From Thunnus maccoyii (lineage: Eukaryota; Chordata; Actinopteri; Scombriformes; Scombridae), in contig NC_056546.1 in NCBI RefSeq assembly GCF_910596095.1, positions 16,702,425-16,766,424 on the forward strand: a stretch of DNA of 64,000 bases, written 5' to 3'. The position numbers and the translations under genes were made by a program. A model generated the notes under the pieces. The model was not told where the DNA came from and ran no database searches. It saw only the letters and a list, made by a program, of their open reading frames with translations. Shown piece after piece: positions 2,424-64,000 of this stretch. How positions within the stretch are numbered: the first letter of the stretch is position 1; every line of letters starts with the position of its first letter.

Positions 2424-5400
2424 ATGGAAGCAGATGGGTTTGTGAGGAGGCGTCGGATGACAGCGGAGACTGCAGGCAATGATCCCGGAGTTGCGGGCGC
2501 ATCTGCCGGGGCAGAAGTTCGATGGCTGGGAGGAAGATTCTGGGTAGTTTCGGAAAGTATTGTGGGAAGCCTGACACCTCGTATCGGAAGCGAGACAGAA
2601 CTACAGACTGTTGACTTTATTCGTACTGCACAAGATCAAACAGAGGACTCTGAACCAGACTATGAGGGTTTACCACAGGGAGCCTCCACCAGCACCCACA
2701 TGTTGGCTGGAGCCGTGGCCGGGATCATGGAGCACTGCCTCATGTTCCCCATCGACTGTGTCAAGGTAGCTTAGCTTGGTGGCTGACCAGCTGATCCACG
2801 AGTTTGTGTGTTTGTTCTCTGTGTTTTCACAGACTGTGGATGTTATTCTTGGAAGGTTAGCTAACATGTTTGTTAGCATAGCTCATTAGCTAAACACGCT
2901 GCAGAGCTGACGGCTGTGAGGACAAGGTCAGCTAGCGTCTCACACCCCTCCTAGCTAACTTGTTAGCATGCTATAATAACAACAACAATAACAATGCATT
3001 TAATTTATACTGTAATTTTCATTCGCAGTGAATCTCAAAGTGAAGTTAACCGCGACTAACGTTAGCTAGTGGCTAATTATTATAACAACCTTAAAGCTCG
3101 GTCAAACACAGGAGCCCAGTTGGCTACTTGGTTGAAAACATACAAAGTTAAACAAGAAATTAATTTACTGTCAAACCCATAACGGCTATAATGTTACTTA
3201 ACTGATGTTTACATGTGTAAAATGTAAGAAAATCTGAAAGTTAACGCCAGGTTGAGTAATTTAATGAGGAAACGGTTGTTTAACTGCAACAACATTTTAG
3301 GGAGACCAACGCTATGGTCGTTGTTTACTAAAAGCAAAGGCCACTAGTTGAATGTTGTTGTTGCTAGGAACTTACGCCCTGTCTGCCACTATTATCTCAA
3401 GGAACATAAAAATGGTGGAGTCGGGAGGCAATTTGGCTCTTCCAGTCCCCGGTGGTGCATGTGTTGACCCCTCCCCTCCTCCCAAAACACAGTACACGGT
3501 CGTTTTATAGAGAAGTAGGCCCACTGCTCGTAGTTTTGTTGAGAAGTAGGCCCACTGCTCCACACACCGTAAGTCATTGTTTTCAAAAAGTCTTCTGGTC
3601 ACATGTGAGTCATGCAATTACTCTGGGCCAGTTCTCATCATGCGGCCCTGTTTGTTATGTATGAACTAGTTGTCTTAGGAATAAAAAGGTAAAGAGGCAT
3701 GGCCTATTACCCCCTGAGGTCAGTTGTGGCCATGAAGTAGTGATGATTGTATAACGCAGGCACAGGGCCAGAGGAGATGGGACAAGTGACAATGAGCTTA
3801 GTACAGTCAGCTGTCCATGTCAGACTGAAAAGCTGTTCCCACACCTGTGCTTCATCCATGTCTCTTCCACCTGTAGTCTACCTCCGTTGCAGCCTGCAGA
3901 GCCCTAAACCTGGACAAGGCCAATGTTTACAGAGCCTTCTGGCGTGTTTGCTACGCTGCTAATGGATCTCAGCCTCTCTCCGTGCAAGCCACAGGAATTT
4001 TGGGGCATTGTGACTCAGCAAAATGACATCTACAGCCCATAATCAACCAGACATATTATGCAGAGAAACAGATATTTCAGAAAATTGAGAAATATTTAAG
4101 AGGCATCTAACATATTCCTTTATTTTGCATACAGTAAACAGAGGTTTCCCTCTTCCCAAATCAAGGCTTCTCCTGCACGATAAGCTTCTTCACTGCACTT
4201 GTTGTGTAATTATAGTTTTGAGTAGGCTTGTATTCTACCTTAATGTATCCTAAATCCCAGTAATTAATTGTGGATTTTAAAAAAAGCTTGCTGCATTTGC
4301 AGTGAATACTGCACAGCGCACATGAATGGAATTTCCAGTCATTAAAAGAAACCAAGAAGGTCTTCAGAGTTTTCTACAAGGATTGATGGACATTGTGTTA
4401 ACATTGAGCACAAAGGTCGTTGCCTTTTAGATATGTAAACATACTATAGATAAACACAGCACTGTGCACAGCTGACCTTCGTGCATGTGTTTCTAAGGAC
4501 AGCCATGATCGAATGAGTACTGAAATTACAGCCTCTGCTCACTCGGTGCATACACCTGTACCACTGTTAGCCAGCCCTCTTTGGGCCCTGCATTCCTCAG
4601 CTGTAGTATGGAGTGACATGAGGCCATGTTTATACTTTGCTACAGCACCACATGCACACACATACACAGACACACAGTGGGGTGTAAGTTTGTCCATTCA
4701 GCTGGAAGTTTGGTATTTAGGGATTATGTCGCTGCTAGTTCCTCAAGGACAGACGCACTCACCCAGTCCCCTTGCAACCCTCGCTAAACACCAAATAGCA
4801 GGTGACTGAAACAGTGATTCCTTGCACTTGTCCTCTTAAACAATATTGATTTATTTCAGTATGTGGGCATGCATGTGTGTGTTAAGCGGAAGAGAGAAAG
4901 GTGTGCTTTAGGGTCAGTGGGAAAAGAGGCTTACAGGAAATCAGCTATGTCCCCCTGTGACCTTGGAGCTTGTAACGCCATACTTCCTTCTATTCAATTA
5001 TGCATGTACACCAACACACACAACACACAATGTCCGACTCCTCATTTCCCTTATTTGCCCCCCTATTCACACCACAGTCTATTCAGACCTCTTTTCATTG
5101 CCATGCTATTCTTTGCTGTAATAGGGAGACGTATGGTATTTTTGCGTTATGTTCAAAATTTTGATTTCAAATTCATTCAACTTCGCGCACTAAACTTATT
5201 CTTTGTCCATGTTTGACTTTACAAAACTTTTGTGGGTGGGACGTGAGCACTGTTTCGACTTTGACCATTGCTACATTCCACCTTTTCCTCTTTTCCAGAC
5301 AAGAATGCAGAGCCTCCAGCCCGACCCCGCAGCCCGCTACAGGAACGTGATGGATGCTCTCCGCCGAATTATAGCCACAGAGGGCATCTGGCGGCCAATG

Positions 5401-7486
5401 AGAGGGCTGAATGTGACAGCTGTTGGGGCAGGGCCTGCCCATGCCCTCTATTTTGCCAGCTATGAGAAACTCAAAAAGACTCTAAGTGATGTCATTCACC
5501 CAGGGGCTAACAGTCATTTGGCTAATGGTACCATAAAACATACATATGCACACACAAGCAGTGACATATAATGACACATACTGTGCAGATGCTTTATAGT
5601 CATCTTAACTTTGAGATCAATCTAAGTCTGTTGATATGTAGGACTACAGGCCTAACTTGACCAACTTCAAGCTCAATACCACGCGCCCTCAGTGAAATCT
5701 GTGGAACTGCTGAGTCAGCCTAATCCGTAAATAGAGCAGACACGGCCTGGCCAGTCCTAAAAAAAAACCCTGACAGGATGTCAAATTGGATAGAGCCTTT
5801 TCATAGCTACAGTTGTGCACTGTGAGGAAGTAACAGGGACAGTTGGGAGTTCAACAAACTCTTATTTTGGTTCAGCTAAGTGACATCAACTGCCAAATAG
5901 GAGATTCAACCAGAAATTCTGTGTGCTCTCAGTGTCAACCTTTTCCTTATTCCATGTTCTGCCCACTCTCTCTCTTCCCTCTTTTCCAGTGTAGTGGGAG
6001 GCTGGGTAAGTCCTCTTTCTCCCATCTCATCTGCTCTCTCCTCTGTTGGTCCTGTCTTTTCAAGCTTTTGGGTTTGGTTCATAAATCTCAAAGGAGCAAT
6101 GAACTGTCTTGTCCACTAGGTGTCTCTCTTTGCTCAAGTTTGGCCTACTGAACTCAGTCAAGAGTTATCTCTAGTTTTAACCTGTGCAACTTGCCATCAA
6201 GTATGCACCAATTCTGTTAAGATGATATATATGTATTTTTTAGCATGACAAGCACAGCCTTTAGGAAAGGGGAAGGAAGGGTTCTTAATCGTGCAAGTGA
6301 AATTTTGTTTTTTTTCTTACTCATTCTCTGCCTCTTTGCTGCAGTGCGTCCTTGTGCGTTTTTCCTGATTATCTCACTGTCTAGTAATTTTGGAGTTGTG
6401 TTTGTTTCAGGAGCAGCTGGGTGTGTGGCCACTCTGCTTCATGACGCAGTCATGAACCCAGCTGAAGGTAAGGGCAACATTTTATTGTATACTACTGTTT
6501 GCCTTTGGCCACAATTTGGGAACAGAATTAGGATGTGCGTCAAGATATTTTTTTAGTGAAGAAATTTACAGGTGCCACGCCTGGGCCAACCGTCTGCACA
6601 TGGTGGCCTTAACCCCTCAGTCTCACATATTGACTTTCACAGCTGCATCCAGTCCACCTGCCCAAACATGTCCGTAGAAGGACACTGGTCAGAGTCATTG
6701 TGTGCAGCTGTTGGATGGGGTGCAGCTGTCTGAGCAAAAGCTGCTACTAAAATGACTTACTACATCTTACTGTATGTTTATTTGTTCAGAAGCTAGAGGT
6801 AAAAGCTCACTAATTTCTTTCATTCTTTTTATGTGCTTTTTTTTGTTCATCTCTGCAAACTGTGGACACATTTGACCTTCTCCATCAAAACATCCACCCA
6901 TGCGTCCTTAGTTGTGAAGCAGCGCATGCAGATGTATAATTCGCCCTACCGTGGCGTGTTGGACTGTATACGCGCTGTGTGGCAGAGAGAGGGCGCTGCA
7001 GCGTTTTACCGCAGCTACACCACCCAGCTCACCATGAACGTGCCCTTCCAGGCGCTCCACTTCATGACCTATGAGTACCTTCAGGAGCTGCTCAACCCCC
7101 ACAGACAGTACAATCCCTCATCCCACATGTTGTCCGGAGCTTTGGCCGGGGCCATCGCGGCTGCGGCCACCACACCTCTGGACGTCTGCAAGACCCTGCT
7201 CAACACCCAGGAGTCTCTAACCCTCAGTTCCCTGTCTTCCGGCCAAGGCCCCGGCCAGGGCCAAGGCCAAGGAGCCCACAGACATATCTCAGGCCTAGCC
7301 CATGCCTTCCGGACAGTATACAGGCTGGGCGGCCTGCAGGGCTTCTTCAAGGGAGTCCAGGCGAGGGTCATCTACCAGATGCCCTCCACAGCCATTAGCT
7401 GGTCAGTGTATGAGTTCTTTAAGTATGGACTCACCAAGCATCAGCACAACAAGAGGCGAACGCAGCAAATTGAGGCTGAGACATAG
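2424..7486 (+). CDS. slc25a28: Mitoferrin-2 (mitochondrial iron transporter), four coding exons
   Basis: Joined exons 2424-2765, 5299-5527, 6411-6467 and 6912-7486 give a 400-residue protein; all introns are GT-AG and phases agree. It is a mitochondrial carrier: three repeats with the signature P-x-[DE]-x-x-[KR] seen as PIDCVK (109-114), PAEVVK (207-212) and PLDVCK (298-303), so six membrane helices in the inner membrane. Mitoferrins import ferrous iron into the matrix for haem and Fe-S synthesis. The assignment to paralogue 2 rather than slc25a37 rests on close resemblance to remembered SLC25A28 (the [10 protein letters not shown] and GPAHALYF stretches) and on its neighbours nkx2.3, got1 and cnnm1. 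The protein is about 36 residues longer than the human one, partly from a Gly/Gln run at 320-330 and a longer N-terminus. Met12 (2457) is an alternative start. Exon 3 is only 57 bases. Confidence 0.9.
2766..5298 (+). other. slc25a28: slc25a28 intron 1
   Basis: The 2.5 kb first intron separates the coding part of carrier repeat 1 in the middle of its signature (K114/T115). It is rich in GCTAGC/GTTAGC-type words near the 5' end and holds a small duplication, GAGAAGTAGGCCCACTGCTC at about 3511-3530 and 3540-3559. I see no nested gene. Confidence 0.8.
7241..7272 (+). repeat. slc25a28: Coding GGCCAA/GGCCAG hexamer repeat in slc25a28
   Basis: A short degenerate GGCCAAGGCC-type repeat in exon 4 encodes alternating Gly and Gln (residues 320-330) in the loop after the third carrier signature. 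The human protein as I remember it lacks this run, so it looks like a repeat-driven insertion tolerated in a matrix loop. Confidence 0.7.
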
Positions 7487-17259: not shown

Positions 17260-20200
17260 TAGATGATGCAGGTAGAATGAGGGATGCTTGGCTTTGGTAG
17301 GAATGAAAAAGTGTTCTTTTTTTGTATCTACCTGCTGAGATTGTTGGGATATGGAAGATGTGTCGAGAATCTGACTTCTCCATTCATGTCCTCTACTGCT
17401 ATGATGTCTTTGGGACCTTTGTTCTTCACTTTGCTTGTCCTACAAAAGCAGCCAAACATGCAAAGAGAAAAAGACTGACGATATATCAGACAAATTGCAA
17501 GGTAGATCCACAAAATATTAATTTGTCCCAAAACACTTATTTAGGATAAAAATACTCCAGACACTGAAAACTGGAGATATTATCACTCAAATATTCAATC
17601 AATTTTTGGTTCATATCACAGCATACATCTTTACTGGTGGAAAAGACCCTTACAAGTTGATAAAGGGCTCACAAACACATACATACACTCCCTTGTGTAT
17701 TGGTGTAAGCCCATGTTTTGGAAACTCAAGCCTCCGGTCAAAGCCCCTTACAGCAAGCACCTGTGGAAGGGTGTATTTAACACACTCATGCACGCACACA
17801 CACACACATATACTCACACACATACACTAATGCTCACAAACACACACTCCAACGGTACTTAGGAATGTGAACGCCTGAAGGACTAAGGACCTCTACACCA
17901 ACTCTCACTCAGTCGCTTGCCTTCTCCCCTTCTCTACATATTTATGGCCCTTTTGTTGCTTTTCTTGTCAGATCTCTCTCCATATATTAAGCCAAATCAT
18001 AACTGGACCACTCAGCATGAATTACAAAGTGATACAGAATTACGCCATAATGTCCACTTTATTCCGTCCTTGTCAGCGTCTAATGGATGAGGTGTGATTA
18101 CAGGCTCTTCGTCTTACTCACTGGGATACACACAGACACATACAGGTTGTGATCTCACGCTCCTCGGGAGTGCTGCTGGATAAAGGAGCTGTTGTCGTAA
18201 TCACTTTGGCTGTTGCAGTCTCTCCCACTCTGGCCAAATAGAGCAGCTTTGAGGGGAGGAGAGGAGAGCAGAGAAGAGACCAGAGAGTAGAGCCAACAAG
18301 CTTGTTGGTACATACATTTAGCAAAACCGGATCCCATATAAAAATCTGCAGACAAGATAACTATGATTTGAGATGTTATCTCTGATTTTGATCATGTTTC
18401 ATTTCCATTATTTAGCACAGGCAACGTGCTAATTGGATTTATGCAATCTGATATGAATCGTATTTCTGAGAAAAGTGGACTTTTACTCAAGTGCTGCTGA
18501 AATATTATCTTATCTCTCACACAGGAGGCTCTGGGCCCTCAACACTCAGGGTTCCCCCACTTAATTTTGCTATAATTTGATCAAATGCAGATGTATTTAA
18601 GTATATGCACTATATACACATAATATCAACTGGTATATAAAAAGTATTTTAGTATATTGGATTTTTGCGCATGACCTCCACCTTCCTTTAATAGTCAACT
18701 TTCTTGTAGTAAAGAAACATAAAGTCCTCCTCTATTCATGAGTGTGTTTTGCTTATTGTTACATCACTTGGATTTTTGACTTTCACTGTGCAGAATGATA
18801 TATGTATAGTTTGACAATAGGAGGCTGTTTTCACATTCATCTTTATTTATGATGAAAGTTTCTCTGTACTCACCTTAAACCTGAGTTAAAGGCGTGTACG
18901 TGCAAGATGATTTTGTGACATCATACCTAGCTTGGAAGTCAATCATGGTTCAGTATGCAACTTGCACAAGTGTGGTGAGAGAAGTTGAAACATCAAGTGC
19001 ACATATAGTATGAATGGGCTTCTAATGTAGTAGGAGACATCTTGTGTGCAGCAGGTAAACTTTTGAAACAAATTCAAGTATTTGCATATTTATAGATTTT
19101 AGATTTTAGAGAATTTATAGATGTAATAAAATTTTTAACAAGATAAATGAACCATTTGAGGGAAAACATACTCTATTTTTTTATTTAAGACAGCATTTTC
19201 ACGTGTCTCAAAAGATATCTGATGGGAATCTTTAGATTATGAGACAAGTGAAAAATGTTTCCTGGCTAGATCCGGTGATGTGTTTATCCATCTTTAACTC
19301 AGACATTGACTCCAACGATGGCAGTATCAGACTGAATTATGAAGCATAGCAAAATGTAAGATCTGGATGAGGGCCAGTCTACAAAAATAACAGAAAGATT
19401 ATCAACCTAGCCAGTTGTGGCTTGAACATCTCCCATAGTGCTGTGCTGTGGAGAATTAGGATGCGGGGGAGATACGGTTCCTGTCATCACTTAAGAGAAC
19501 AAGTTGGGGAGGAAAGATTCTTCCCACCACCACCAAAGATACATGATGATCATTAACACACACATACACACACACAAATACATGAATATGCGCACACACA
19601 GCAATTTCTCTGTGGGAGAAAAAGCTGAAACAGAAGAGAAAACAGCTGCTTTGATTATGAGCATTTAGCAGAGTATACAGAGTGTGCAGGGCACCATGGT
19701 GATGTATGTGTGTGTGTGTGTGAGAAACGGGATCTCCCTCACTTTTCGTGCAATAAAAGAATATCACGCAAGACTTACAGTGAATAGAAAGCTCCTCGAT
19801 AAATCCAAGTGTTTATAGTAAAATGCCATTGCTAATGGGCCAGAATAGGGAGAAGGGGAGAGAAGGGGGAATAAAGCTCTTAAAGCAGGGAAACTGATAT
19901 TCTCATATCAGCAGACAAAACCAATGTATGATGATGATGAAAAAAATGGGAGTTTAAATAGAGTGGGCTTGTGTCATAGTTTGGAGTGTGAGTGCAGCAG
20001 GCATATTTCGATTGCTATTGTTGGCTGAGGAAGGATCCCCAAATGCTAACTTACTCTGACATGCCACAATCATGATCAAAGCAAAACATACTCATATGCG
20101 CGCACACAAACACACACACTTATCATCCCTCGGGCCTTCGGGAGTGAAGCCTTGGCAGAGTCTGATGAACTACAGCATTGTTACGGATGAATGCAGGTGT

Positions 20201-21021: not shown

Positions 21022-21286
21022 CCAGACGTCCAGAAATACTGGTTCAAGGTTAGGACATGTTTTTTGAATTTGTGTTCTGCTCCTGTATCCTTGTGGAATA
21101 CCTCTCTTGCGATTCAGTTAATGATGTGGTTTACAGAACAGAATATGGGACCTGAAAGACCAACAAGACAGGGGGGGGGCAGTGGCACAGAGGTATAAAT
21201 TGAAGAATAAAACATAGAGATGCGAGAGAGAAAATAAAACAGCTCCAAGCAAGGTTTAATCTAATCTAGAATATAAAAAGTGAAGC

Positions 21287-21911
21287 TTTAAAGGGGACAT
21301 ATTATGCTTTTTGTGATTTTCTATTTTTTTATACTGCTATGATGTTGGTTGTCTATGTTAAACATGGTCAAAGGTTCAAAACTTGAGGTGAACATATGTA
21401 AGTCAAAAGCCCAGGCTTCAGCCTGCTCTGAACACTTCATTTACAATGTGACCTCTACTTCCTTGCTTGTTCGCGCATGCCCACAAATGACAGCCCGTTA
21501 CGTAGTCTTTGTTGCTAAGGTTGTTCATGTTGTCCACTCAAGTTTCTGATTGGATTTGGGCTCAAACATGTATTTGTATGTCTTTGATGTATTTGAGAAG
21601 TTTATATTTCAAGTAAAGAATGAGGAAAGAGAAGAAAAATCCGACTACCATTGTTTGTCTACGTAGTCTCTGCAGAGAGGCGGCTTCTGAGAGCTGGCCA
21701 ATCAGAACAGAGTGGGCTCATTGGGAGGGGGGCCTTAAAGAGACAGGAGCTAAAACGGCTTGCTCAAGACAGGGTGAACTGAGGGCCTGCATAAAAGGCC
21801 AGTATAAGATAAATAAGAAGTTTTTTGAACTATAAATCATGTAAAGATATACCAGTAGAGCTCCAGAATGTAAACATAGGCCTGGAAATGTGAATGATGT
21901 GTCACCATTAA
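21287..21911 (+). mobile_element. Fish non-autonomous DNA transposon (AAAGGGGACATATTATG family)
   Basis: Starts with TTTAAAGGGGACATATTATG and ends with a diverged inverted version (ATGTGTCACCATTA, about 21897-21911). The interior has landmarks of a very common teleost MITE-type repeat: GTTAAACATGGTCAAAGGTTC, GAGAGCTGGCCAATCAGA, and GGGGGGCCTTAAAGAGACAGG. No open frame of transposase length. The family name is not known to me. Confidence 0.7.
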
Positions 21912-27792: not shown

Positions 27793-29294
27793 TCAGAGCA
27801 TTCCTCCATGGGACATGCTACTCATGCTCCAGGGCTGGCAGCAGCAGTGCAGGTAGGGGTAGCACTGGTAGGCCTGGTACAGCGGTACAGTCATGGGGAT
27901 GTGTACTCCATTCGCCTGCTGGTACTGCTTTTGATCGTCCCTCACCAGCACTTTGACTGCTACCTTCTTTGGTGAGCTGCACGCCGCCAACTCTGCAGCC
28001 ATCTGGCGCCGTTTGGTTTTATATCTCCTGTTCTGAAACCAGATTTTCACCTGGGTCTCTGTGAGTTTCAGGGTCCCTGCCAGATCGGCCCGTTCAGGAC
28101 CTGAGAGGTACCGCTGCGTGTTGAAGCGGCGCTCCAGCTCGTAGACTTGAGCGTGAGAGAAGGCCGCTCTGGAGCGCTTCTTGGTGCCGGACCTAGACTG
28201 TCGCTCTTCTGGGGAGCAGCTGACCATCTCCCTGCTGTGATATCCCTCCTCATCCACCCCTTTATCCTGCAGTTTATCCCGCTGCACACAATGTGGTTGC
28301 TTGTCTGCACCATCTAGGAAAGACAACACGGATTTGCAATGACGATGGTCACATTTAGCAAACTGTCATTCTCTCTCAAGAGGGTCAAAAAGTCACTACA
28401 GGAAGGTGCTGATGTTGGCCACTATGAGGCTTTTCTTTCTTATCCTGTCACACGGTTATGACAGTTGGGAGATACAACGAAATTGTATTAAAATGAAATT
28501 AGTTAATGTGAACATTTTTTTACAAGCAAACCCCCCCTCAGTAAAAACTCACAACACGACCTGGAGGATGGTTTTCCAGTGTTTTAGAGTCACACTTCAC
28601 AACCACATTAACCTGGTACCTTTCTCTCGATTATTGAGCTATTTTTTATGGTATATCGGCCCTTAATATATCTCTATGCAAAATGTAAGGCCTAAAGAAA
28701 CACTCTCGAAACACTCTCACCATGTGGGAAAACCCCTGGACATAGTGTTGACGATTATTAATAATTCATCATATTTTCTGTCGTCAGTTAAAATCATGTT
28801 TTATCTCAAAAAGATGGTAAAACCAAGAAAAGACAATTCATCATGTTTCCAATGTAAAATTTCAATTTTATTATTATTATTTTTTTTTATCTTGAGAAGT
28901 AAAAGTAAGTAAATGCAATAAAATGCGTAAACTTGTCTCTCCCGCTGCAGTCTAAACGCATCGAGTTTTTATTTCCTCACTGTTAAATAGAAGAAAATAG
29001 CCGACCTTCTCTGTGCTCAGTCTCCTCTCCTGTGGACTCTTCGCTGTAGGTATCACATTTGAGGTTCCCAACAGACACACTGAGTTCAGGAAAAGGTGTC
29101 TGAGGGTGGATGCGGTTCTCATCCACGTCTTGGTGAGACAAATCAGGGATTCTTGTACCTCCATGCCCGGTGTAGATGTTGCGCGTTGGCGCGCAGAGCT
29201 CCTCTGTACTCCAGGTGCCACCGGGTTTCCCCCGGTCACCGCGTCCTGTGGTGAGGATGTCTTTGATGGAGAAGGACGAAAAGCTTAATGTCAT
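27793..29294 (-). CDS. nkx3.3: NK3-class homeobox transcription factor Nkx3.3 (bagpipe family), two coding exons
   Basis: Exon 1 runs 29294 to 29006 and exon 2 from 28313 to 27793, joined in phase 1 to give 269 residues. An N-terminal TN/eh1-like repression motif, SFSIKDIL, is at about residues 8-15. The homeodomain spans about 141-200 with W48, F49, N51 and Tyr54 of the recognition helix ([15 protein letters not shown]). [12 protein letters not shown] motif follows, typical of Nkx3.2/3.3. The homeodomain is near-identical to bagpipe/Nkx3.2, but the N-terminal region is much shorter than Nkx3.2 and unlike it, and the gene sits beside nkx2.3; that combination indicates Nkx3.3 (frog zampogna), missing in mammals. 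It is expected to be a nuclear repressor in pharyngeal and gut mesoderm. The intron donor is GTCGGC, weaker than consensus. Nkx3.2 is the main alternative. Confidence 0.82.
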
Positions 29295-29337
29295 GATTAA
29301 AATAAGAGCACGGATGTTTCCTTACTCCCACATGTGG

Positions 29338-29343
29338 TTTATA
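29338..29343 (-). promoter_or_regulatory. nkx3.3: TATA-like box of nkx3.3
   Basis: On the - strand GCATATAAACC places TATAAA about 44 bases before the start codon, with CACATGTG (an E-box-type palindrome) between. The start would then give a very short 5' UTR, so a second upstream promoter is possible. Confidence 0.4.
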
Positions 29344-29379
29344 TGCAGGCATTAAGAGATCGGCCACCTGAAAGCAAAA

Positions 29380-29640
29380 GCCCGTACTGATTCTATCTTA
29401 ACCGCCTCCGTTAATTGCTCTAATTTAATTGTGGTGAAGTAAGTCCGGTCTGCTAATGAACAGCTTATAGCGGGAGCTGTCAAGTCTATTACAATATTCT
29501 CAGCAGCAGCAGGAGTTCTAGTCAACAATTGATTGGCTGTTTCTCTGTCTGGTACCTCCTTCGTACCGCCCAGCTCCATGTCGGTCTCTGTGCCCTGCGC
29601 TCTAATTGAGGACGAGGAAGGCTGATTTTGCAGTTGAACT
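29380..29640. promoter_or_regulatory. nkx3.3: Candidate nkx3.3 upstream regulatory region
   Basis: A repeat-poor stretch with clustered homeodomain-type cores (GTTAATTGCTCTAATTTAATTG, CAACAATTGATTGG, CTCTAATTGAGG) immediately upstream of the nkx3.3 promoter. Function is inferred only from composition and position. Confidence 0.35.
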
Positions 29641-32075
29641 TCTTTAACTTAGGGGGTGTGATTTTTTTATCCACTTATGAGAGTAAAAAACGTTAAGAGC
29701 GTTCTGCAGAGGCTGTTCAAGTATGTGCGCACGAGGAGAGGACTGTAAATACAGTAGACCTTATCGGCAAAATCAAAATGTAACATTTATATTAGACAAT
29801 AGTTAGAGACTCAGAGTGGATGTTGTCAACCATTCCTGCAAAATGTAGCTCATATGTAATATGTTACATGACTTACATGTAAATTGCAGTAAGAAAACCT
29901 GATGCGTAAAGTTCCCTAGGCGTGCGTAAAACGTGGCTAAATGCAAGCTTTCACTTGTGAATTGTGGTTTTAAATCCTTCCACATTGCTGCAGAACAAGA
30001 ACGTTTAAAGGAGTTGTGACTCAATTTTTATAAAACTTTGTTTTTAACTCCCACTTCAGTTAATAAACTTGTTTCATCTCATCTTTGCAAAAATCAAACC
30101 TTTTATTCTTCATAATTGGGTATTTTAGCATTTTATCCACAAAATTGGTCATTTTTAGTTGTCACATTGTGAAGTGTTTAATGAGGGAGCCTCAGATTTT
30201 TGATTCCATGATGCTAATAATCCATAATACTTGTTTATAAGACTCATGACAGAAAAGTCACCGAACTGAGATTGACAATAGATGTTTGATCCGTATGAAG
30301 GTTGCTGCTGAAACAGGTGAGTAGCGCCGCCGTGTGGTGATGATAAGTGATTTCCAAAGTTACAGGGGGTGCGTAAAAAGAAAAGATGCATGGCAACTCC
30401 CCCCCCCCACGCCTCTTCCTCTCTCTCTCGCGCACACACCTTACACAATCAGCAGGCCTATTGAGAAGACGTGATGACAGATGCAGTGATCTGCCTCCTC
30501 TGTTATTTTGTTTTCTTCCTCTGACTAAACAGAGAAATCTCTCTCTGTTTGCCGCAGTGCGCAATTCAGCTCACGGGTGTCAAAACATGTCTGGATGGGA
30601 AACATTGAAGCAAACTTACATGTGTTCAAACCACGAAATGTCATCACCATAATAAAAAAATGTAACGTTTGAATTCAGCAAAACCATGAGAGGTTTTTCT
30701 TGCTAATATAAAATTGTGTTGATTATCATTTCTGAACGCAGCGTATCCTTCACTCACACACTCACTCATAGCTATAAGCACCTTTATGCTTTATAATCCG
30801 CATCCAAATACACTCATAATTTCAATCTCCCTTTCCTTTGCTTGCTATTTTCCTCTGGATTAGTGGACTATATTCAAAGTGCATGTATCTGATCTAAAAC
30901 TGGATACTCTGCAATTCCTGAAAATAATTTCTGTGTGTAGAAAATAATTTTATGTCTGTATTTCTTCTCTACATGATGGTTTGGATCATGCGGAAAAACG
31001 CACAAACGCTAGAAAAATATGTTTAAATCTTGTGATGCATGTGATGCATCAAGTGGCTTTCACAGTAAGGTTTATTTATATAGAGCAAAACTACAACTTT
31101 ATCTCAGAGCTTATTTTTTTTAGTGTACCACATCCACACCCTTAATCATTGGGCCATTCCAAACTGATTTTAAATTCTCCCAGAAGGTTATAGTCCTGAC
31201 AAACACCTAATGACTGAGCCTTAATTTACTCCTGCTTCTCCACGCACTTTTCCCTCTCTATATTTGGGCCCTGGTTCTTTTGTGAGCTGCTTAGTGGTTG
31301 CCATTGGAGACTTTGTTTTGGGAAACTCCACGCCTCGCTCTGCGATGAGCCGAGCTGCTATCTTTGGAAGCAGGAGATAGCGATCGCAGCGCCTGTCAGG
31401 GCAGCCGTGGCCAGGCCGCGTCCTCAGGCATCGCCGCCCTGTCGCCAGCTCTATTTACACTAGTGACTCTGCAGCACTTAGGACTGACACCAGGTATGTC
31501 CTACCGGCAGTGCAGTAGCCAGGGGAAGTGGCCAGTGAGGCTATCAGAGGAGACAAACACTCTGTTTACGTTGTCATTCATCTCCTTTACATCTTAGTGT
31601 CTGCGTATTCGACCATGCCTGGGAGGTGAAGGTGTTTGTTTAACACTGTTACTAATTAATGGCGTGTGTGTGTGAATGAAAAAAAAGAGTAATTATTCTA
31701 GATTTATTGTCAATTCTTGCCAAACACATGGTGATGATTAATATTAGTATTATATAAGTAGCTTATCTTGTTTTAACTGGAGAACGATATATTTCAGCGT
31801 CAGGCATTAACAAAGATAAAATAAATCCAACTGTATTTATTATCCAAAGCTTTGTGAGTTTATGTGCTCTGTGGGTCCTGAGGATGCGGCTGTCTGGTTA
31901 ATGTCCATCTCTGAATCCTGACCGGACATTAGCTCGCCTCTACATTCTCACTGTTTCTGGTTCTTGTCTCAGACCAAGGTCTGCGACAAGCTTTCTCACA
32001 GGAAAAGAAAACGTTTGCCTGGCTTTAGAAACGACCTAAAGCTACGTATGCTTGAAAAATAAACCCAAGGCAAAA
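29641..32075. other. nkx3.3 - nkx2.3 intergenic region
   Basis: The region between the two NK genes. It holds a CpG-richer block at 31330-31460, a repeat-poor block at 31190-31330 with CCTAATGACTGAGCC and CTTAATTTACTCC, and an exact TCAAGTGG (NK2-type site) at 31049-31056. No coding exon recognised; the 77-codon frame at 31364-31597 has no family resemblance. Confidence 0.45.
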
Positions 32076-32090
32076 TTTATTTATTTATTT
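32076..32090 (-). terminator. nkx2.3: Candidate poly(A) signals for nkx2.3
   Basis: Three overlapping TTTATT words (AATAAA on the coding strand) about 880 bases beyond the stop. Another is at 32217-32222. The 3' UTR length is therefore only a guess. Confidence 0.35.
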
Positions 32091-32971
32091 GAATTTCCAA
32101 ATCCATATTCATATAATCTAAATGTTAAAACGTAATAACGCATCGGGAACGTCGCATTGGCATAAAGAAATGCATCATCACATATTTATATTCTGTGCTT
32201 TTTTTTTCTCTATATGTTTTATTTATATATATTTTATATATCTTAATAAGCCTGTTATTAATAAAAGTGAATGAAAAAATCTGGCACACGCGCACACACA
32301 CAAACACATACACGCACACACACACACCAAAGGACAACATAAAAAAAAAATTGTGCCATTATGTTTGTTGTATAATGTTAATTATCATCGTCATTTCGTT
32401 ATGCGCATAAAAAACAGTCCTGGTAAACAAGCGTCCGTTTTAATCAGGTAATATACCACTCCATGTCACGCACTTTGTTTCATAGAAAAGGCTACTGGCC
32501 AAACACAAGTCACTCTGCATGTTAAAAAATAATAAACAACATAATACTTTATAAAACTGCATGAGGAAGGCGATTGAATGGGTCCACTTGGATCAATAAT
32601 TACTCTAATTCTGTAGGCTATTGATAAAAGCATGTGTGTGTTTTTATGGAAATGTTAATACATTACTTTTTGATCCTCAATATGCCAAATTACGCACAGT
32701 CTTATCGGAAACATTCAGTCCAACAATCAAATATCCAACAGCAGTTTTAATACGTTTTATAAACATTGAGGCTCAGAGATGAAAAAAAAAATCTGTATAT
32801 AGTTTGTATCTCAGTCAACTGTAGCGGGTTAGAGTTTCCTTGAAGGCCCGCCTGGAAGCCATGTATTTTCTTTAGAGTTTTAAAATGTGCTTTCATTGCA
32901 TTAGTTGACTTGAGTCCATTCAGCTATCCCAGAGAAGTCTCCTCTAGCTGTGATTGTGCGTAAAAACTGCG

Positions 32972-35226
32972 CTACCATGCCCGGATGCCCTGCAGAGTTC
33001 CTTGACAGGGTGTGACCACTGGTCCTTGGTGAGCCTGGCTTTGCGTCTGTGCTCCAAGATTCCCCAAATTCATGTTCATCAACGCATTTGCAGTGGTGTT
33101 ACTGGGCGGCAGAGCAGGTAGACTAGAATAAGTACAAGAGTAAGTGTTGGTATACACCGAGTTGTTGTAGCTGTAGGCCGGATAGCCATTGTAGCTGTAC
33201 GGGTTTGGAGCTCCGACTGTGTAAGAGGTGTTATAGTTTTGGGATCCAGTCAGACAAGGCCTCCCGTCCCGGACCAGCACCGGCACAGCCACCCTCCTGG
33301 GCGGCGGAGGTGGATGGTGGTGGTGATGGTGATGGCCTGCCATCTCCAGAGTCTTGTCCTGCCGCTGCCTCTTGCATTTGTACCTCCTGTTCTGGAACCA
33401 GATCTTGACCTGGGTGGAGGTGAGTTTCAGCGAGCTGGCCAGGTGCTCTCTCTCCGGGGCGGACAAGTAGCGCTGCTGCTTGAACCGCCGCTCCAGCTCG
33501 AACACCTGAGCCTGGGAGAAAAGGACGCGAGGTTTCCTTCTGGTCCTTTGCTGTTTATTAGCGGTCTTCTCCGAGTCTGCGTCCTCACACTCAGCCCGCA
33601 ACGCACCGCAGCTCTCTGCATGGAGACGAGAGGGAAACATTTATAACTGCTAATTATGCATGATCCATTTTGGCAACATTTATCGCACAATCTACGATTT
33701 CCTTATCTATTAACACTGATATCTACATCAGATTATTTATTTCAGTCTGTGTTATCTTAAAAGTTTGAGGGAAAACATTTTTTCCTCAGCAAATAATTTT
33801 GTGGCAGTTTTTTAAAAATTGAAAATTGTCCTGCATATGATTTAGATTTTTTTTTTTTTCATAGTATTGACCTTTAATTATTTAATCATTCTTCAAACAT
33901 TACAAGAAAAAATGAAAGTGCACTAGATAAGAAATTATCACGCCAGCTTTTTAAAATAATAACTGAATATGTGAGTATATACATCCAGATGTGTTTAAGT
34001 GATTACAAAGTATATTTCATTGAAAGTGAATTCGGAAGAAATTTTGATGAAATAGTTGTCAATAAGTGTAAGAAGGCTACATGCTTCACACTGAGATTTC
34101 TCTGACGATTAAATGCGCATTCAGGGTAAATATGGGAAATTGTAAGACAAGTATTAAAAATACGTTTAGTTTTAGTAGTTTAGAATATAATTTGGTTTGG
34201 TGACTTTAGCGGATTTTTAAAAGTAGATAAATCAGTACAGGTGTAAACAAGACTTAAATGCCTGCAAACTTTATGAACAGTAATTGAAATAGTTGGCGGT
34301 AAATGAATAACCTGGAATTACACTTTGCTGTATTTTCATCAAATGTGCAAGGTGTGGCACTTCATATGTGTGTGTATATATATAGAGAAATATATTTTAA
34401 TCTAAATTTTAGTGGTAGTATCATTCCAGAGCAAAAATGAAGCCAAAACGTATACATGTATTTATTTTATCCATAGAAAACAAAACAAAACAAAAAAATC
34501 CCACCATTGAGGAATTGAGGACCTATAGTTCTATATTCTTATGTTATACAGTCTGTGCAGTTAATGATAATTTCATCGTAATTCATACATGAATCAACAC
34601 ATGCTATATCGTATCTTCTCATATTTTTTCTCCAGAAATGTCGATTAAAGTTTGTTTGGAAAATTTGCCGTCCATTTCCGCGAAACTGTCAGATTTTTCA
34701 GTGTTTAATGCGAGTATCATCTATAATCTGGGTCTCTGCTAAAAATTTTTTATACAGCTATCAATAATAAATACAGCTACCATCATCACCATCCTCACTG
34801 ACTTCTGAACGAACACCTTTATTATTAGACTGTGTACTCACTGGTGTCCTCCTGCTCGGTCTCCAGCCGGAGGTCTGCAGAGTGGCTCTGCGCCGGGTTG
34901 CTGAACATCTCCACCGGCAGACCAGACTCCGCCAGTCGGTCATGTACAGTCAGCGCGTTGAGGTACGACATCCTCTCCTCGTTCTCCGAGAGGCCGGAGC
35001 TGATGGGACTTGGACTGTCCCTGCCGGCCAGCATGCAGGAGGGCGGTGAATGGGAGCGAAACGATTTGTTTGGGAAAGGTCCCGGTTGTGAGAGCGCACC
35101 AGAGAGACCGAAGCAGGAGATAAACTGGAGCTGGTGTTGCTGAGATTGCTGCTGCAGCTCTAACTTCAGAATGTCCTTCACAGAAAAAGGCGTGGTGGAA
35201 GAAGTTATGACCGGACTTGGAAGCAT
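32972..35226 (-). CDS. nkx2.3: NK2-class homeobox transcription factor Nkx2.3 (tinman family), two coding exons
   Basis: Exon 1 runs 35226 to 34842 and exon 2 from 33615 to 32972, phase 1, giving 342 residues. The start is the MLPSPV methionine, matching the family; an in-frame ATG 33 bases upstream is not used by relatives as I remember them. Domains: TN motif ([10 protein letters not shown]) near the N-terminus; homeodomain about 154-213 with the Nkx2.3-identical stretch [20 protein letters not shown] and Tyr54 (NRRYKCKR), which sets the CAAGTG preference; a His run then a Pro run; the NK2-specific domain [12 protein letters not shown]; a Tyr/Asn/Ser-rich tail; and the C-terminal GTLQGIRAW. 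Known roles in vertebrates include pharyngeal endoderm, gut and spleen mesenchyme and vascular addressins. It lies about 3.7 kb upstream of nkx3.3 in the same orientation. Confidence 0.93.
33616..34841 (-). other. nkx2.3: nkx2.3 intron
   Basis: A single 1.2 kb AT-rich intron with donor GTGAGT (34841 downward) and acceptor TGCAG (33620-33616). It separates the TN-domain exon from the homeodomain exon, as in other NK2 genes. Nothing else recognised in it. Confidence 0.85.

Positions 35227-43830: not shown

Positions 43831-49111
<5,281 letters not shown>

Positions 49112-52966: not shown

Positions 52967-64000
<11,034 letters not shown>

Follow-up and report, generated by a model that had tools for sequence, protein, structure and literature searches.

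An nkx3.3–nkx2.3 homeobox gene pair in Thunnus maccoyii, a probable remnant of the ancestral NK cluster

In the Drosophila 93D/E NK cluster the NK4 gene tinman and the NK3 gene bagpipe are neighbours. Linkage of NK4 with NK3 was described as kept in amphioxus and vertebrates (PMC2446394). Here we describe such a pair, nkx3.3 and nkx2.3, in a 64,000-nucleotide stretch of the Thunnus maccoyii genome (C14:16702425-16766424; genome 782 Mb, 54 contigs), called the window below. The fly cluster is larger and holds further NK genes, whereas the window pair consists of two tight genes only. In the NKX3-1/NKX2-6 pair at human 8p21.2 an NK3 and an NK4 gene are likewise adjacent, and its fish counterpart on C9 has the order, orientation and mitoferrin-type neighbour of the window; that pair, however, is a paralogous copy with other paralogues (nkx3.1; nkx2.7/Nkx2-6). 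A third vertebrate NK3 gene, Nkx3.3, was described from amphibians and lungfish and considered unlikely to exist in amniotes, the relevant part of the source dealing with its presence and expression but not with adjacency to nkx2.3 (PMC12506533). Table 1 of PMC2446394 gives a Nkx2.3/Lbx1/Tlx1 paralogon on human chromosome 10, which resembles the window's chromosome in carrying nkx2.3 and a tlx1-like gene together, but the NK3 slot of that published table is empty and the window fills it with nkx3.3.

No paper naming both nkx3.3 and nkx2.3 was found in a search of the open-access literature. Zebrafish and Xenopus have nkx3.3 database entries, and in zebrafish nkx3.3 and nkx2.3 are probably annotated on one chromosome. 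The pair is largely as expected in a teleost and adds one more, unremarkable example to a known kind. Very probably the locus is the vertebrate nkx3.3–nkx2.3 pair of a teleost, one early-genome-duplication copy of an ancestral block, with a linkage that most likely persists passively. A single genome here combines two complete NK3–NK4 pairs with an nkx2.3 locus that lacks its NK3 half, and is well suited to comparing shared control DNA with inertia as reasons why old gene neighbourhoods last.

The gene pair and its copies in the genome

The two genes were both intact and lay head-to-tail on the minus strand, nkx3.3 from 29294 to 27793 and nkx2.3 from 35226 to 32972. The pair spans 7.4 kb, positions 27793..35226 running exactly from the nkx3.3 stop to the nkx2.3 start, with an intergenic stretch of 3,677 bp (29295..32971) between the nkx2.3 stop and the nkx3.3 start. 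The initial annotation had reported two NK homeobox genes in the same orientation within 7.5 kb, one of bagpipe type (NK3) and one Nkx2.3 (NK4), with the strand unstated; this arrangement held, and both identities were supported, NK3 and NK4 forming separate clades (100/100).

The predicted nkx3.3 protein has 269 amino acids and is encoded by two minus-strand exons. Exon 1 (29006..29294; ATG at 29294) carries an N-terminal TN-type motif, and exon 2 (27793..28313; stop at 27793-27795) carries the bagpipe-type homeodomain (Pfam Homeodomain, E 1.2e-21) and a further short motif. The frame is open, and the acceptor TTTCCTAG and the phases fit the two-exon model; at this predicted junction the donor (window 28998-29005, GTCGGC) has the GT but is otherwise poor. 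A TATAAA-like box was seen at 29338, on the exon 1 side. A TN motif on its own first exon is a trait of the NK3 family, and here it lies on the separate exon 29294-29006. The homeodomain grouped with Nkx3/bagpipe, apart from NK4, in trees with provisional human NKX3-2 and bagpipe references, and the best match of the protein in PDB was human Nkx-3.1 (2l9r).

The predicted nkx2.3 protein has 342 amino acids and ends in GIRAW; its two exons (35226-34842 and 33615-32972, minus strand) have phases and splice sites that fit. Nkx2.3 is characterised by an NK4 homeodomain, an NK2-specific domain, a TN motif and a GIRAW-type end. All four were found, the TN motif in exon 1 (34842..35226; ATG at 35226) and the homeodomain (Pfam Homeodomain, E 4.2e-21), NK2-specific domain and C-terminal GIRAW in exon 2 (32972..33615).

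The genome was searched with the NK3 part of the protein (111 matches, 150 of 206 candidates scored) and with nkx2.3 (112 matches, 118 of 198 candidates scored). Translations of 42 homeobox loci were then read, 30 from the first search and 12 from the second, many of them the same places, and weaker matches were left out. Three NK3 genes were found among the 42 loci, at the window, C8:23916420 and C9:23408501, together with four NK4 genes, at the window, C2:5582820-5585221 (nkx2.3b), C9:23415817 and C8:11229286. On C8 and C9 the genes were named from provisional human sequences together with position and motif. We take C8:23916420 to be of nkx3.2 type, its homeodomain and C-terminus matching human NKX3-2, and C9:23408501 to be of nkx3.1 type from its resemblance to human NKX3-1; C9:23415817 was assigned to the nkx2.7/Nkx2-6 type by position and C8:11229286 to the nkx2.5 type. 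The C2 gene was 76% identical to the window nkx2.3 over 213 amino acids and had the same ending. A third NK3 locus, that of the window, thus exists beside recognisable nkx3.1 and nkx3.2 genes.

On C9 a mitoferrin-type gene (plus strand, 23.397 Mb), an NK3 gene (minus, 23.4085 Mb) and an NK4 gene (minus, 23.4158 Mb) have the order and strands found on C14. The initial annotation had read the window pair as a probable remnant of the ancestral NK cluster, and this second pair, alike in order and orientation within the same genome, supports that reading. Two rounds of early vertebrate genome duplication would have copied an ancestral mitoferrin–NK3–NK4 block, the window being one copy, and order, strand and neighbours suggest that the nkx3.3–nkx2.3 linkage was inherited from the NK cluster. 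By a simple uniform placement estimate (3 NK3 genes, 4 NK4 genes, 782 Mb), one same-strand NK3–NK4 pair within 8 kb has a chance of ~4e-5 and two such pairs, as the genome has, of ~5e-9. With this last figure, and with two pairs sharing order, strands and a mitoferrin neighbour, a chance or recent secondary re-association of the two genes is hardly credible; nothing was found in its favour.

On C2, nkx2.3b (5.583-5.585 Mb) has a got1-like aminotransferase exon 38 kb away, at 5.545 Mb, and a mitoferrin-type gene at 5.603 Mb, which suggests a teleost-duplication copy of the C14 locus. A translated search of this locus with the entire nkx3.3 protein (E to 10) found no NK3 exon in the gap between nkx2.3b and the mitoferrin-type gene, a gap without N, and returned only nkx2.3b exons and noise. 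Of the four NK4 loci read, two adjoin an NK3 gene and three a mitoferrin gene (within 26 kb). A separate nkx3.3 copy elsewhere, held out in the initial annotation as evidence to the contrary, was seen neither at this nkx2.3 duplicate nor among the 42 loci translated (NK3 search, 150 of 206 candidates scored).

Placing the NK3 gene

The full tree had 16 rows, with all references and long branches, and a 12-row tree was built by dropping one human NKX3-1 fragment, two NK2 genes and Drosophila tinman. The C8 NK3 gene grouped with the provisional human NKX3-2 reference (82/84) and the C9 NK3 gene with that for NKX3-1 (92/87). The window NK3 gene fell in a fork with nkx3.2 and Drosophila bagpipe (83/85, 12 rows). 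In the approximately unbiased (AU) test, joining it to nkx3.1 was weaker and not rejected (p 0.12), and pairing it with fish nkx3.2 alone was nearly rejected (p 0.064). The phylogeny proposed in the initial annotation upheld the NK3 and NK4 identities, and the strong grouping with Nkx3.1 or Nkx3.2 that it had warned of did not appear; a positive nkx3.3 clade was not obtained. The name nkx3.3 would therefore rest on synteny and elimination, as the protein tree alone does not separate nkx3.3 from nkx3.2.

Several points weigh against the reading of the locus as an anciently inherited nkx3.3–nkx2.3 pair. Joining the window NK3 gene to nkx3.2 was not rejected (AU p 0.53), and its homeodomain was identical to the nkx3.2 type at 56 of 60 residues and to nkx3.1 at 47 of 60. 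From the paralogon history nkx3.1 should be the closest relative, yet the tree leans to nkx3.2. The NK3 tree was built with provisional human NKX3 references and with no Nkx3.3 protein from a second species, and most of the human gene order compared here is provisional as well. The C2 nkx2.3b fell outside a group of the C14 nkx2.3a plus others (88/73), counter to a clean sister pair, in a weakly supported NK4 part of the tree. Pfam was the only basis for calling the C2 exon got1-like, and a similar exon also occurs on C1. Finally, the case for passive persistence is an argument from neighbouring genes.

The first of these points would suit a second nkx3.2 (or nkx3.1) copy that was moved or duplicated beside nkx2.3. 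We regard this origin as very unlikely, since a distinct nkx3.1-type and a distinct nkx3.2-type gene are already present in the genome, the pairing with fish nkx3.2 alone was nearly rejected, and order and strands match those of the C9 pair. The C-terminus outside the homeodomain also differs from both the nkx3.1 and the nkx3.2 types. Over 65 homeodomain-region codons, nkx3.3 and the nkx3.2-type gene showed 5, 3 and 30 differences at codon positions 1, 2 and 3, respectively, a third-position excess as expected for proteins under purifying selection.

Shared control DNA and persistence of the linkage

The initial annotation had argued from close linkage to shared regulatory DNA. This was not supported, as non-NK neighbours proved equally persistent and the ohnologous loci shared no convincingly conserved non-coding DNA. 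Stretches of C2 (37 kb) and C9 (22 kb), both from this same genome, were compared with the window by blastn, with the four NK exons masked and matches taken to E 0.05 (C2) and to E 1 (C9). No convincing collinear non-coding match to C2 or C9 was obtained, the 3,677-bp intergenic stretch included. The strongest collinear match (72% identical) joined window 21286-21911 to C2:5598718-5599174. This segment begins with TTAAAGGGGACATATTATGC, presumably one mismatch from a teleost repeat terminus, and has TTAA at the other end. With its repeat-like terminus and TTAA it was not taken for an enhancer and is likely a TTAA-type transposable element, a conserved element being the alternative; no further copy was found in the 50 sequences compared.

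The remaining matches were rejected. Window 18759-19166 matched C2 twice (69-74%), in the wrong orientation and not collinearly, and is repeat-like. The C2 matches at window 22.4, 23.2, 24.8, 42.6-42.9, 47.8-48.0 and 56.2-56.4 kb were short and were either wrongly oriented or placed on the wrong flank of nkx2.3. For C9, matches better than E 0.01 were considered and weaker ones (E 0.01 to 1) left out; those at window 0.4-0.6, 1.4-1.5 and 50.9 kb joined several C9 places to one window place and are repeat-like.

NK homeodomains with tyrosine-54 are expected to read AAGTG-type sites, and both window genes encode transcription factors of this type. TYAAGTG sites were not enriched in the window (23 vs 31.7 expected; 23 or more in 95 of 100 shuffles), and 2 of the 23 lay inside 27793-35226, with no clustering of NK sites. 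No Rfam family of RNA genes scored above threshold in the window. The indirect sequence tests, by alignment and by NK sites, gave no support for a co-regulated nkx3.3–nkx2.3 pair. Elements commonly turn unalignable between ohnologues, and shared enhancers may stay compatible with null alignments.

Because mitoferrin was kept beside NK4 at least as faithfully as NK3 was, linkage alone is no evidence for NK-specific shared control, although non-NK neighbours such as mitoferrin may themselves be mere passengers within a regulatory block. It is nevertheless conceivable, if rather unlikely, that the pair is kept together by regulatory DNA that is shared or interleaved, with nkx3.3 also driven by pharyngeal enhancers near nkx2.3 and breakage selected against. 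Both orthologues were reported from the pharyngeal region, Xenopus Nkx3.3 in the branchial arches (PMC12506533) and nkx2.3 in the pharyngeal endoderm of other vertebrates (PMC8476176). The same tissues, pharyngeal endoderm for nkx2.3 and branchial arches for nkx3.3, are the most likely sites of action of the window genes. Table 1 of PMC11034925 gives nkx3.3 as an example of the genes targeted by novel teleost conserved non-coding elements, and section 15 of PMC13088399, written on arthropods, argues that shared control DNA is the usual reason for conserved clustering, as in NK clusters. On the other side, zebrafish nkx2.3 reporter lines were made with a 5.5-kb upstream fragment (PMC6392332). 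The window yielded no convincing alignment to C2 or C9 (the one strong collinear match being a likely transposon) and no excess of TYAAGTG sites, and C2 keeps nkx2.3 without an NK3 gene. Work published in 2009 on NK linkage in vertebrates reportedly found neither conserved elements nor co-expression for the Nkx3.1-Nkx2.6 pair.

The linkage most likely persists passively, as a 7-kb tandem that would rarely be broken; this is argued from the neighbours. Overlapping control DNA would perhaps help, with no support found here, and the second nkx2.3 locus, on C2, shows that the arrangement can do without its NK3 partner. More tentatively, and against our own expectation, nkx3.3 might lie within the nkx2.3 regulatory landscape, held by interleaved enhancers, with C2 as a natural deletion separating the elements of each gene. 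If true, this would explain how amniotes dropped NKX3-3 without breaking NKX2-3.

Neighbouring genes and the human 10q24 counterpart

On the nkx3.3 side of the pair lie exons of slc25a28, a mitoferrin-type carrier (approximately 5296..7483, plus strand); it was called 28 and not 37 by synteny, and its match to a provisional human SLC25A37 sequence was 69%. The nkx2.3 side carries two exons of got1, the cytosolic aspartate aminotransferase (45728..47201, plus strand), and a CNNM metal-transporter exon in an open frame (59535..59993, minus strand), probably cnnm1 by synteny. A tlx1-like gene at 30.08 Mb on C14 was 98% identical to a provisional human TLX1 homeodomain sequence. We take the human 10q24.2 order, with its strands, to be CNNM1–GOT1–NKX2-3–SLC25A28, and the window neighbours read in reverse equal it, strands matching. 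To judge from the slc25a28, got1 and cnnm neighbours, in the same order, and from the tlx1-like gene, the window locus is the counterpart of human 10q24.

Human NKX2-3 is placed at 10q24.2 in PMC2211742, and the two human Nk3 genes listed there are NKX3-1 at 8p21.2 and NKX3-2 at 4p15.33 (Holland 2007, PMC2211742). The loss of the NK3 member from this locus in mammals, asserted in the initial annotation, agrees with this list and with PMC12506533; as the latter considers Nkx3.3 unlikely in amniotes, the loss would be wider than mammals. Since nkx3.3 sits between nkx2.3 and slc25a28, the amniote NK3 gene would have been lost at that spot.

The other two Tlx-like matches (90 and 93%) were found on C8, alongside the nkx3.2 and nkx2.5 types. 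On this chromosome the nkx2.5-type gene (11.23 Mb) and the nkx3.2-type gene (23.92 Mb) are 12.7 Mb apart, with the Tlx-like genes at 17.28 and 28.26 Mb. C8 appears to unite two paralogons that occupy different human chromosomes.

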